Shown here piece by piece: positions 54,468-60,318 of a DNA stretch of 64,000 bases. Origin of the DNA: Bacillus kwashiorkori. GTDB lineage: Bacteria > Bacillota > Bacilli > Bacillales > Caldibacillaceae. Under the pieces are notes generated by a model. That model ran no database searches and was not told the DNA's origin. It saw only the letters and a list, made by a program, of their open reading frames with translations. The DNA lies in the NCBI RefSeq assembly GCF_001375515.1, contig NZ_CTDX01000014.1, forward strand, positions 62,001 to 126,000. The letters run 5' to 3'. Every line of letters starts with the position of its first letter. The first letter of the stretch is position 1. The position numbers and the translations under genes are program-made.

Positions 54468-54474
54468 CTAATCA

Positions 54475-54512
54475 CTCCTTAGTTTTTTTACGTGGGATGG
54501 TTTCGAACCACG
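54475..54512 (-). promoter_or_regulatory. preQ1-I riboswitch, translational type
   Basis: On the minus strand CGTGG (from 54512) is followed by TTCGAAACCAT, then CCACG closing stem P1, and an A-rich tail AAAAAAACTAAGGAG. This is the preQ1-I layout: P1 stem, ligand loop with conserved TTC, and A-rich tail that docks in P1. The tail contains the Shine-Dalgarno of queT, so ligand binding would hide it. Confidence 0.87.
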
Positions 54513-54754
54513 ACTTGAATCAGACTAGTAAGATCCAAGATTATTATTATAACAGTTTAAAGTCATAGTTTCAAAGTGAAGTTTTGGCAACAATTTGCAA
54601 AAAAAAAACGCCACCACTATGGTTATCGCTAAACGTTATTATTTCCTCCCTTTTCTGTAATTCGATTATTAATCAAAATGAATAAGCTAAGCAAATCCAC
54701 GATTAGTGCGTAAAAATGAATGGTTTATATACATATTAATAAAGAATTTTTTAT

Positions 54755-55129
54755 TTAAAAGCCGTCTTCAATTGCTGAAAATGGTATTTGTAGTCGATTT
54801 TCTACAATACGCAATCTTTGATTAAGGCGTTGCAACTTTCTAGTTTGACGTTCATTTTCACGGCTTAATCGAGTGATTTCCTGGCTCATACGTCTCATTT
54901 CTCCATTGATTCTGGTTATTTCTTGATTCAAACGACGAATTTCATCGTTTTGTCTCGTCAGTTCTTCTGTCTGTCTTTCGTTTTGTCTTTCTAACTGACT
55001 TACTCTTCTTTCCAAGTTTGGTTGACGGATATCATAACTAGAGTAGTCATACGTATTTGAAAAGGACGAATAACTAGGTGAGTAAGAATATGTTAGCATT
55101 TGATAAGGGGAATACTCGTTAGCATACAT
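54755..55129 (-). CDS. Tyr-rich, coiled-coil small protein, possibly spore-associated
   Basis: 124 residues. The first 35 are rich in Tyr and Ser ([20 protein letters not shown]). Residues of about 40-113 form an uninterrupted coiled coil dense in Arg, Gln, Glu and Asn, with regular spacing of L/I. The end is [16 protein letters not shown] precedes ATG 55129. An upstream CATATCGTA fits the sigma-K -10 pattern. Similar composition is common in spore coat proteins, so a coat role is plausible but unproven. No named family recognised. Confidence 0.7.
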
Positions 55130-55355: not shown

Positions 55356-56120
55356 ATGGAAACAAAAGAAGTGAAAGAAAATAATGAAATAAGTGAGCTT
55401 TGTCTCCTCGCAGGGAAAATTATGTTAGAAAGTGGCGCAGAAACATATCGTGTAGAAGATACAATGATTCGAATAGCTAATGCATACGGTGTTCATAGTG
55501 CCGAAAGCTATGTCACGCCAACAGGAATTGTTTTTTCACTCGAAGGGGAATATCCAACAAAAACGAAAGTAATTCGAATATTAAAAAGAGGAACGGATTT
55601 AAATAAAATTGCTATTGTAAATAGTACTTCTAGAGATATTAGTACTGGAAAATATTCGGTAAGAGAGGCATATAACAAGCTGAAGGCAATCGAAAAAGCA
55701 AACTTAATGTATTCCGTCTGGTTGCAAGTGTTAGCTGCAGCGCTTGCCAGTGCCTGTTTTGTTATTATGTTCCGGGGAAGTTGGGATGATTTTGTTCCTG
55801 CAATATTCGCAGGTGGGTTTGGCTTTTTTATGTTTCTTTATATTGATCGCATCGTGCAAGTCAAATTTTTCTCTGAGTTTTCAGCCTCACTAATAATAGG
55901 GTTGTTGGCAAGTATTTTCGTTCATTATGGTTTTGGTAAAGAAGTAGACAAAATTATTATTGGGTCTGTCATGCCACTTGTTCCTGGACTGCTCATTACA
56001 AATGCCATCCGAGATCTAATGGCAGGACATTTAGTTTCCGGCCTCGCAAAAGGAGCAGAAGCTGTGTTAACAGCTTTTGCCATCGGTTCCGGAATAGCTG
56101 TAATTTTAGCTATGTTTTAA
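55356..56120 (+). CDS. Threonine/serine exporter ThrE-type, large subunit
   Basis: 254-residue protein of the ThrE (YjjP-like) family. The N-terminal 110 residues are soluble with ELCLLAGKIMLESGAETYRV and SYVTPTGIVFSLEG. Five hydrophobic helices follow, with IIGSVMPLVPGLLITNAIRD containing the conserved proline pair. It must combine with the small subunit encoded 34 bases downstream. In E. coli the YjjPB pair has been linked to succinate export, so the substrate is open. Confidence 0.87.
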   Translation: METKEVKENNEISELCLLAGKIMLESGAETYRVEDTMIRIANAYGVHSAESYVTPTGIVFSLEGEYPTKTKVIRILKRGTDLNKIAIVNSTSRDISTGKYSVREAYNKLKAIEKANLMYSVWLQVLAAALASACFVIMFRGSWDDFVPAIFAGGFGFFMFLYIDRIVQVKFFSEFSASLIIGLLASIFVHYGFGKEVDKIIIGSVMPLVPGLLITNAIRDLMAGHLVSGLAKGAEAVLTAFAIGSGIAVILAMF

Positions 56121-56154: not shown

Positions 56155-56610
56155 ATGTTGGCACAGCTATTCACTAGTTTTGTTGCAACATCTGGATTTG
56201 GTGTCATTTTTAATGTACCAAAAAAAGCATTAATCCAATGCGGTTTTGTTGGGATGGTTGGCTGGGCGATTTACTTTTATATGGTGGAACAGCAAATAGA
56301 CTCTGTTCCAGCTAGTTTCGTTGCGGCATTTTTTATTTCCATTATTAGTCATATTTTTGCCAAAAGATATAAAACACCAGTTATTATTTTCACGGTTGCT
56401 GGAATTATTCCATTAGTTCCTGGCGGTTTAGCATATGAAACGATGAGAAATTTTGTCGTGAATGATTATAATATGGGAATCCAATTAGCTACTAAAGTTT
56501 TACTAATAGCCGGTGCAATTGCTATGGGGATTGTTTTCTCAGAAGTCTTTAATCAAATATTCCGGAGGTCATTGAATAAAATAGCAAAAATCAAACGTCC
56601 AAAGTCATAA
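56155..56610 (+). CDS. Threonine/serine exporter ThrE-type, small subunit
   Basis: 151-residue membrane protein of the ThrE_2 (YjjB-like) family with four helices. The motif TVAGIIPLVPGGLAYETMRN repeats the proline-rich loop of the large subunit. ATG 56155 follows AAGGAG. It completes the two-gene exporter; in other bacteria the two halves are fused. Confidence 0.87.
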   Translation: MLAQLFTSFVATSGFGVIFNVPKKALIQCGFVGMVGWAIYFYMVEQQIDSVPASFVAAFFISIISHIFAKRYKTPVIIFTVAGIIPLVPGGLAYETMRNFVVNDYNMGIQLATKVLLIAGAIAMGIVFSEVFNQIFRRSLNKIAKIKRPKS

Positions 56611-57274: not shown

Positions 57275-57576
57275 TGTGGTTTTCTCATTCTCAAATTGCG
57301 GATATTCAGTTGCTGCTTTTTTAGAATAGAGCATTATATTGTCTTGAAACTGAAAGGATATTGTAATTAATCCGTGAATATTATTTGATAGAATGAAATA
57401 GGTATAAAAGGAAAAGTAAGTTAAATCAATAATTGCATATATTTAAAAATTTCATTCCCTTATCCTATAAGCACATTTTCATAAATAATAAGCAATTCCA
57501 CAAAATCCGACAAACTTTGTAAAATATTTCATATACAATAGCGGTAATGAAAAATAAATTTTAATAGGTGATGCAG

Positions 57577-60318
57577 GTGAACTTAGAGAATAAGTTAATT
57601 TCTAAACAATATTATCAATCATTGGTCCGTGATTTTAAAGAAAACCATCCGATTCAATCGTTAGGGGAACTTTTTTTACTAGAACAAAAAAAAGAAATGC
57701 CAGATGCTTCATATATTCGTTTTTCGCAAGGTGAGGTCTATTATCAAAACAAAGACTACGAAGCAGCCATTTACAAATGGGAAAATGTGCACAATGAGTT
57801 AAAACCTTGGGCACAAAAAAACATTGGCGATGCATACTTTGAACTAGAACTCTATCCTACCGCTGAAAAAATATATACAGAAATTAATACAGAATCCATA
57901 CCATTACAAATGGAAATCCAATTACAATTGTTCGCACTGTATATCGAACAACACAATAGTGATGCGGCAAAACAAGCGATAAAAAAAGCTGTTTCAATAA
58001 ATCCTGATTATCCCAATGTAACAAAAATCGCCAAAAAACATTTTGAAAAAACACTAGATTGGGAAAGTGCTATGAACTTAGCTATATCAGAGGGGATACG
58101 TACCCAATCGTTATATTGGTTTGAACTCATTAAATCATACGTAAAGCAGAAAAAGGTTTATGAAATGCAGCCAGACTATTTTCATGAAGTATTAACAGTT
58201 CTTTTTAAGTTAGATAAATCGTTGTTTGAACAATTAGTTATTGCTTTATGGAATTATTTCAAAAATGAAGCAGCTTATTTTCCATGGTTAGTTGGGTTTA
58301 ACCGTTTATTTATAAGCCTAGAAGTAGATAGTTCCACAAAATGGAATTATTTGCCCGACCAATATGCACAATCTTATAAAGAATTAATGTCAGGGAATCA
58401 TTTATTAAATGAAATGAAAGTTGTGATTCCTGGATTTTTAAACACTTGGTTACTTTTGTCCAATAAAGAAACAGCTATTTTACCATGTGCTAACATCTTT
58501 GCTTGGAATGAAGTTATCCCACAATTTATTGCTCCAGAAATGTTGCAGGAAGCAGAAAAGTTAATTTTTCAATCAAATAACTATATCGATATTAATACAG
58601 AAACAGAGAAACTATATGTACAAATAATTAGCTGGAAACAACAGCAAAGATTAGAAGTGAACGGGCAACTTAATAGATTAAGCAACCATATATTAAATGA
58701 GAACAAGAATTATATTACACTTATTTCCATGATTGGAAGTGAAAAATCAGTTTTTGTTAATTCCCTGTTTAATAGGAATATATTACCAGAAGTACCGACA
58801 TCTGCTGTTACAATGTTCCAATATGGAGAAAAAAATTCTATTACCGAATATAAAGATAATCAATTCTTAGAAATATCAGATGTAGCAGATTATCATAGTT
58901 TTGTTGCAGCAAGACGAAGATCAACTGCAGCAAGTTATGATGTGAAATTGAATCATCCACACTTAAAAGAGTTTGAATTAGTTTTAATCGACACACCTGA
59001 TTTATATGGCAATATAGAATTAATGAATGATTTTGCTGATTTTCTCCATATTTCAGACGGTATCGCGATATTATTATATAAAGAACACCCAATAAGTAAC
59101 GAGGAATGGCAGTTATTAGAAAAACTAAAGTCTGAATATGGACATATTCCGTTATATTTTATTTTAGTAAATATGGATGATTTATATGAACAGCAAAGAG
59201 AAAGGGAAATGGTGGAAATTGGAAAGAAAAATATCGAAGTAAACTATTCAGATGCAACTATTTTTGCTTATTTTGATACAGAAAGTCACCGCAAATCCTT
59301 ATTGAAACTACTACAAGAAAGCAAGAAGAAAGATGTATATAATAAAGCCGAAAAATACGTATTTTTTATAAAAAGAATTATTGCAGATTTATTAGTGCAA
59401 CGAAAACAAGCCGAAAATCAACTGTTGGAATTGATTAATCAGAAGGAAGATTTATTACATCGAGTCATTGGTGCGAAAAATCAACTAACCGATCTACAAA
59501 AGGATAAAATCGCAATGATAAAAAAATCATATCATTTAGTTGCTGAGGAAATGCAAAATGAAATCATACAGAGATTACCGAAAGTGTTGCAAACGATGGC
59601 TGAAACCATTGACGAAGAACGTGATTTTTTTAAAATTAATCAAGAATTAAATGATGAAATGAATGAAAAAATTACTCAGTTTATTGAAAATATCATTTTA
59701 CCAGAATTTGAGAGCAGAATGAATGATTGGTTGAAGTTATCTGAACAAGAGTTAGAAGAAAGCAGAAAGTTTTTTGAGGAAATGGCTTATAGCCTCCATT
59801 CGTTAATTGGAGAAAACCAACTAGAAGCAGAGTTTGATTTTAACATACTAAACGACTGGCAACGGGATATTAATAGGTTAACGAGAAAAGTGGAGATAGC
59901 AAAAGCAAATATTTTACTGCGATATACACCGTCTCAAATATTTTTAAAAAGCACTGGTCGAGTCCTTTCCGTATTCTCTCAAAATAAAGCAACTTTAGTA
60001 AAAAAATATCAGTCATTTATAGAAAATGAAAATTATGAAGAAGTTGTAAAATCTATTGCTCACCAATTTGTGCAACCATTTACCTTAATTGAACAAGGGA
60101 TTGAACGGGATGTTGATATCTTTTTTGAAGATGCCTATGAAAAATTAATTCAATTAAGTAATGATACGGAAAAAGAAATTAGTGAGACGAAAGCCACTTT
60201 AATGAAATTAAAGGAAAATCCAGAAAGCTTTGAGGATCCGCTATCTATTTTTGAAATTTTACGTACGCAATTTGAAATCATTTTAAAAGTGATAAAGCCT
60301 GATCCGATAACAATATAA
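57577..60318 (+). CDS. TPR - dynamin-like GTPase-fold protein with degenerate P-loop
   Basis: 913-residue soluble protein. About residues 45-175 are TPR-like helical repeats (FSQGEVYYQNKDYEAAIYKW, AQKNIGDAYFELELYPTAEK). A dynamin-type G domain starts near residue 375: the P-loop is shortened to IGSEKS (Gly387-Ser391) in place of GxxxxGKS; G2 is PTSAVTMFQ; G3 is IDTPD (Asp472); G4 is NMDD in place of N/TKxD. Long helices from about residue 600 to the end resemble the stalk of dynamin-like proteins. GTG 57577 has AGGTG upstream; ATG 57571 is an alternative. It could be a pseudo-GTPase or bind membranes without hydrolysis. A terminator follows. Confidence 0.75.
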   Translation: MNLENKLISKQYYQSLVRDFKENHPIQSLGELFLLEQKKEMPDASYIRFSQGEVYYQNKDYEAAIYKWENVHNELKPWAQKNIGDAYFELELYPTAEKIYTEINTESIPLQMEIQLQLFALYIEQHNSDAAKQAIKKAVSINPDYPNVTKIAKKHFEKTLDWESAMNLAISEGIRTQSLYWFELIKSYVKQKKVYEMQPDYFHEVLTVLFKLDKSLFEQLVIALWNYFKNEAAYFPWLVGFNRLFISLEVDSSTKWNYLPDQYAQSYKELMSGNHLLNEMKVVIPGFLNTWLLLSNKETAILPCANIFAWNEVIPQFIAPEMLQEAEKLIFQSNNYIDINTETEKLYVQIISWKQQQRLEVNGQLNRLSNHILNENKNYITLISMIGSEKSVFVNSLFNRNILPEVPTSAVTMFQYGEKNSITEYKDNQFLEISDVADYHSFVAARRRSTAASYDVKLNHPHLKEFELVLIDTPDLYGNIELMNDFADFLHISDGIAILLYKEHPISNEEWQLLEKLKSEYGHIPLYFILVNMDDLYEQQREREMVEIGKKNIEVNYSDATIFAYFDTESHRKSLLKLLQESKKKDVYNKAEKYVFFIKRIIADLLVQRKQAENQLLELINQKEDLLHRVIGAKNQLTDLQKDKIAMIKKSYHLVAEEMQNEIIQRLPKVLQTMAETIDEERDFFKINQELNDEMNEKITQFIENIILPEFESRMNDWLKLSEQELEESRKFFEEMAYSLHSLIGENQLEAEFDFNILNDWQRDINRLTRKVEIAKANILLRYTPSQIFLKSTGRVLSVFSQNKATLVKKYQSFIENENYEEVVKSIAHQFVQPFTLIEQGIERDVDIFFEDAYEKLIQLSNDTEKEISETKATLMKLKENPESFEDPLSIFEILRTQFEIILKVIKPDPITI

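Follow-up and report, generated by a model that had tools for sequence, protein, structure and literature searches.

Dynamins are defined by GTP hydrolysis coupled to membrane remodelling. What, then, could a dynamin relative do if the motifs that contact the nucleotide have decayed? The question is raised by a gene of Bacillus kwashiorkori within the window, the 64,000-nucleotide stretch of contig NZ_CTDX01000014.1 that was analysed. It is a single open frame encoding 916 residues from its first GTG, at 57568, which is the basis of the residue numbering used here, or 913 from the GTG at 57577. The latter had been chosen in a first-pass annotation of the sequence and is probably the right start: it is preceded, at 5 nt, by AGGTGA, which resembles a ribosome-binding site, and the N terminus that it gives, MNLENKLISK, matches the MTLENQLIKK of homologues. 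The TPR repeats described at the same time are borne out by Pfam TPR_1 (PF00515; E 1.3e-6; 28.4 bits against a cut-off of 27.8). The match to Dynamin_N (PF00350) is below the curated cut-off (22.2 bits against 27), whereas of 50 aligned relatives 40 match the same model with an E value of at most 0.001. Pfam and NCBIfam hold no curated name for the TPR-dynamin family, phmmer against PDB sequences returned only a weak TPR match, and no PADLOC model matched the protein, which speaks against a known defence system. Literature searches found no description of bacterial dynamins with TPR or as pseudo-GTPases, in line with the earlier remark that no described system was known to have this arrangement. 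The parts of the gene are as follows.

57568..60318, + strand: TPR-dynamin-like gene, single open frame
57589..58587, + strand: TPR alpha-solenoid, residues 8-340 (Pfam TPR_1; AlphaFold (AF2) pLDDT mostly >85; fold search; conservation)
58588..58695, + strand: neck helices, residues 341-376 (AF2; aligned with the neck of mitofusin/BDLP-like structures)
58699..59331, + strand: G domain, residues 378-588, fold predicted intact, motifs degenerate (AF2; fold match; Dynamin_N, sub-threshold as above)
58726..58749, + strand: G1/P-loop SMIGSEKS, residues 387-394, full length, both Gly substituted (homologue alignment)
58798..58800, + strand: putative G2 threonine, T411 (alignment)
58990..59001, + strand: G3 DTPD, residues 475-478, Gly lost (alignment)
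59170..59181, + strand: G4 position NMDD, residues 535-538, Lys lost (alignment)
59341..59808, + strand: first long stalk helices, residues 592-747 (AF2; fold search)
59809..60036, + strand: stalk tip, a putative membrane paddle, residues 748-823, including the most conserved part of the protein, D757-Y814 (AF2; conservation)
60037..60294, + strand: returning stalk helices, residues 824-909 (AF2; conservation)

The P-loop had been read as shortened, an alignment error in which Gly390 was mistaken for the first glycine. Set against homologues whose motifs are intact, S-MIGS-E-KS occupies every one of the eight positions in G-xxxx-G-KS without a gap, which rules out shortening. The first glycine has become Ser and the second, as already reported, Glu; Lys-Ser (K393, S394) is kept. 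SMIGSEKS departs in this way from the GxxxxGK[S/T] of active dynamin GTPases. The G3 letters, DTPD, are those read previously and lack the glycine of DxxG, and NMDD at G4 indeed lacks the Lys of [N/T]KxD. T411 stands at about the right place for G2, in a region that aligns with gaps. Of the four motifs that contact the nucleotide, three are broken, and the alignment of homologues at G1 and G4, which had been proposed as a check, traces the degeneracy of the window protein to substitution. G1 is broken at preserved domain length in 7/7 sequenced members of the window's family; each retains the P-loop Lys and has a residue other than Gly before it (SEKS, SDKS, STKA, SAKA, DTKT, DDKS, SEKM). Because this is so in all seven, it is more than chance or sequencing error. 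Homologues with a normal GxxxxGKS, which had been named as a sign of local deletion or misreading, do exist, but there is no deletion and the same-family relatives are all degenerate; decay common to the whole family rules out both a sequencing error and a local deletion at G1.

An AF2 model of the window protein, built from a 50-sequence alignment (mean pLDDT 87), predicts a TPR solenoid, a neck, a complete G-domain fold, long stalk helices and a tip. TPR structures are among the fold-search matches to residues 16-340. The modelled G domain aligns with the mitofusin 1 GTPase at Z 18.2 and 3.3 A over 208 residues (VIA-align), and such dynamin-type matches agree with the earlier supposition that the fold is kept. 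For the part after the TPR, the best matches are IniA (Z 18.5), mitofusin 1 (also mitofusin 2) and BDLP (Z 17.4), followed by SynDLP (540 residues aligned, Z 14.5) and LeoA; since models this long and flexible give a large rmsd over the stalk as a whole, the match there concerns its arrangement rather than detail. The tip is predicted to consist of short helices, conserved and only mildly amphipathic, and is a putative lipid-binding paddle. By predicted fold and by descent the protein belongs to the dynamin superfamily, its homology to proteins whose Dynamin_N matches exceed the cut-off extending over the full length.

Is the entire family inactive? It is not. Among 122 aligned homologues, 36 have intact G1, G3 and G4; since about a third thus keep all motifs, GTP matters somewhere in the family. 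In another 22 G1 is kept with G3 or G4 damaged, and in 38 G1 is broken, these states being assigned from motif patterns, so that some of the last group (e.g., with GKA) may still bind GTP. Finally, 26 lack the whole G domain (residues about 376-592) in a single open frame. These domain-less proteins, of about 690-750 aa, run from the TPR neck to the stalk directly or via a short linker. The AF2 model of one is as confident as that of the window protein (mean pLDDT 87-88 for the two); a fold search with it returned only TPR and other helical-repeat proteins and barely probed the stalk. Junction sequences and linker lengths vary between clades, as expected under separate deletions. On a tree from TPR and stalk columns only, with the G-domain columns left out, G-domain presence changes at least 7 times, a minimum under trees made by fast methods, and G1 state changes 12 to 17 times. 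The presence changes are read as losses because the root is a paralogue carrying the G domain. Forcing the domain-less proteins into one clade is 806 log-likelihood units worse (p-AU 1e-39), which rules out a single loss. Change is also seen at short range: a domain-less protein (L166) adjoins intact L144/L146 of the same genus, and intact L117 stands beside L118 with GKA. Two homologues of 841 aa (L157, L158) carry a partial deletion of about 80 residues between G1 and G3, a form intermediate between decay and complete loss. Separately, three copies (L181, L182, L183) are split into two overlapping or adjacent frames and are either recent pseudogenes or assembly errors.

Sequence conservation follows the same gradient. 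Relative to TPR plus stalk, mean pairwise identity of the G domain is 0.78 in intact homologues, 0.71 in those with G1 only and 0.54 in those with G1 broken, so that even among intact homologues it is the least conserved part. This is the reverse of ordinary dynamin-like proteins, where conservation lies mainly in the G domain (PMC10104851). Conservation is highest in the TPR groove and the stalk tip, namely at TPR residues 51-103 and tip residues 757-814, domain-less members included. Substitution rates were compared in pairs from the window's family, with no close relatives of the window species among them. In L068/L069 the G domain evolves about twice as fast as the TPR (dN 0.49 against 0.23). 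In close pairs every domain has a dN/dS well under 1, and in L067/L005 it is about 0.15 for the G domain, ratios that are rough because most pairs are almost saturated at synonymous sites. At a ratio that low the G domain is therefore maintained as a domain, though relaxed.

Taken together, these comparisons fit and strengthen the first-pass proposal of a nucleotide-free or non-hydrolysing TPR-dynamin scaffold: the motifs have decayed recurrently, there have been at least seven changes to a form lacking the G domain, and TPR and stalk have been kept. What falls away is the shortened P-loop and the inactivity of the family at large; for the window protein inactivity is deduced from its sequence. 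We consider it reasonably probable that the protein is a pseudo-GTPase acting as a TPR-to-membrane adaptor, and that its ancestor was a GTPase working alongside partner dynamins. We infer for it an adaptor function, no nucleotide binding, a tip that binds membrane and a partner held on the TPR. The N-terminal solenoid would bind the partner protein, and the C-terminal BDLP-type stalk with its conserved tip would bind either membrane or the stalk of a second copy. The degenerate G domain would persist as a mere folded spacer or interface, with no GTP-driven cycling, and the protein would tether its partner to the membrane, or assemble it there, statically. There is a precedent in B. subtilis DynA, which does not need GTP for membrane tethering and lipid mixing, although it does for phage protection (PMC8844932).

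The ancestral GTPase probably joined a pair of dynamins in a complex, as its third subunit. In each of the four genomes examined (L184/L200, L185, L196, L201), two dynamin-like genes (products of about 580-670 aa) are followed by a third gene that encodes a distant paralogue; its motifs are intact, it is about 24% identical, and the homology runs from end to end:

L184, 5917-12814: compact three-gene dynamin operon
L185, 5398-12071: compact three-gene dynamin operon
L196, 5356-11819: compact three-gene dynamin operon
L201, 9416-15834: compact three-gene dynamin operon

The products of the first two genes match LeoA and LeoBC models of PADLOC, and the operon is possibly a three-part relative of LeoABC. 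Similar three-dynamin operons occur at L197 (6638-13015) and L198 (5607-11983), where the third protein joins an N-terminal dynamin domain to a bacterial SH3 domain rather than TPR. The paralogue thus sits among adjacent dynamin-like genes, as in LeoABC-type operons, and the window gene does not: no dynamin gene is among its neighbours in the window. Among about 120 loci of single-copy genes, one has a dynamin neighbour. Apart from a diverged case beside a frameshifted copy (L183), the dynamin-operon setting either disappeared from around these genes or was never there. Neighbour clustering over these loci found no neighbour or operon partner conserved across families. A small coiled-coil protein is encoded at 54755-55129 on the - strand of the window, and similar genes lie near TPR-dynamin genes in five further loci, making six from four families. 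Elsewhere in the window, a PreQ1 riboswitch (RF00522, 53 bits, 54473-54517, - strand) stands directly upstream of a QueT transporter gene (PF06177, 53982-54467, - strand), a textbook arrangement, and a threonine/serine exporter is encoded by two adjacent genes on the + strand, 55356-56120 (PF06738) and 56155-56610 (PF12821).

The operon of the paralogue could also suggest that the window protein is still a subunit of a hetero-oligomer, its degenerate G domain dimerising across the G interface with an active dynamin (e.g., DynA) that supplies GTP turnover. The DynA of this genome has both heads, with both P-loops, intact, and of 40 genomes sampled 39 have a DynA-sized protein, irrespective of which state the TPR protein is in. 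Purifying selection on the G domain in L067/L005 would also fit, and septin pseudo-GTPases, which pair with active septins, offer a precedent (PMC10731463). However, the domain-less homologues persist though they cannot use a G interface, the near absence of dynamin neighbours extends across the single-copy loci, and one genome (G001) has a degenerate TPR-dynamin and no DynA-sized match, a counter-case, from that genome only, to obligatory dependence on DynA. We therefore regard a hetero-oligomer as unlikely.

Less probable still is a nucleotide binder with an unusual P-loop, holding GTP, GDP or another ligand as a locked switch that does not hydrolyse. K393 and S394 are kept, a caveat to any pseudo-GTPase reading, as some P-loop variants still bind nucleotide; the putative G2 threonine is retained too, the P-loop Lys is present throughout the window's family, and AF2 predicts an ordered G domain. 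Against this, an acidic or bulky residue replaces the Gly before that Lys in every family member, the window protein has also lost the G3 Gly and the G4 Lys, and elsewhere in the family the whole G domain is dispensable.

The family is widespread in this order. Matches were obtained in 28 of 61 near relatives and, across the order, in 201 of 397 genomes, or about half, a few of them being weak and single-domain; named carriers include Peribacillus glennii and Halalkalibacter akibai. When 299 genomes were sampled from across the phylum, hits beyond the order reached no further than the G domain and the stalk next to it, except for one weak TPR match, and no full-length relative outside the order was found. 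Searches of plasmid and phage collections with tblastn gave no match, ruling out a plasmid or phage gene. Could the gene simply be decaying, and functionless in B. kwashiorkori? A G domain evolving faster than its flanks, one genome of the window's family without the gene (G002) and the frameshifted or split copies L181-L183 elsewhere would suit decay. Yet 916 codons are open, TPR, stalk and tip are conserved, dN/dS is far below 1 in all domains of close pairs, and 6 of 7 other family genomes keep a full-length copy; we hold decay to be very improbable. Counts of changes alone cannot separate gain from loss, but an ancestral domain-less form that later received the G domain is scarcely credible when an intact G domain occupies the same position in the outgroup paralogue (L184, L185, L196, L201), the surrounding stalk matches dynamins that all have one, and several separate gains at one site are less plausible.

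With the window protein read as a pseudo-GTPase adaptor, the family as a whole looks, by a narrower balance of judgement, like a dynamin lineage that has repeatedly discarded its GTPase: GTP cycling would be dispensable, stalk, tip and TPR would form the essential unit, and a GTP-independent membrane adaptor would have evolved repeatedly from a subunit of a three-part complex. For bacterial dynamins it is still debated how the stalk functions in the absence of GTP, and the natural deletions of this family bear on it. Intact, damaged and domain-less homologues lie close together, a naturally matched set of variants in which GTP-dependent functions could be told from the rest.

Among known systems, septin pseudo-GTPases offer a parallel in which GTPase activity was lost repeatedly and independently within an oligomerising G-protein family (PMC10731463). 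Septins are eukaryotic filament proteins, and the part of that source used here describes no complete G-domain deletion of the kind seen in TPR-dynamins. B. subtilis DynA belongs to the same superfamily as the window protein and is encoded by a separate gene in the same genome; it is a two-headed fusion of about 1200 aa without TPR, both of its P-loops being intact here. The adjacent dynamin genes of the ETEC LeoCBA locus resemble the operon of the paralogue. In vitro, neither binding nor hydrolysis of GTP was seen with LeoA (PMC4159319), but it keeps most catalytic residues and has no TPR, whereas the window gene stands outside such an operon. Closest in predicted architecture are BDLP, IniA and SynDLP, with which the window protein appears to share the G-domain fold, the neck and the trunk stalk. 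In contrast to them, it adds a TPR solenoid of about 340 residues, has degenerate G1, G3 and G4, is encoded by a single gene, and has relatives that have dispensed with the G domain entirely.
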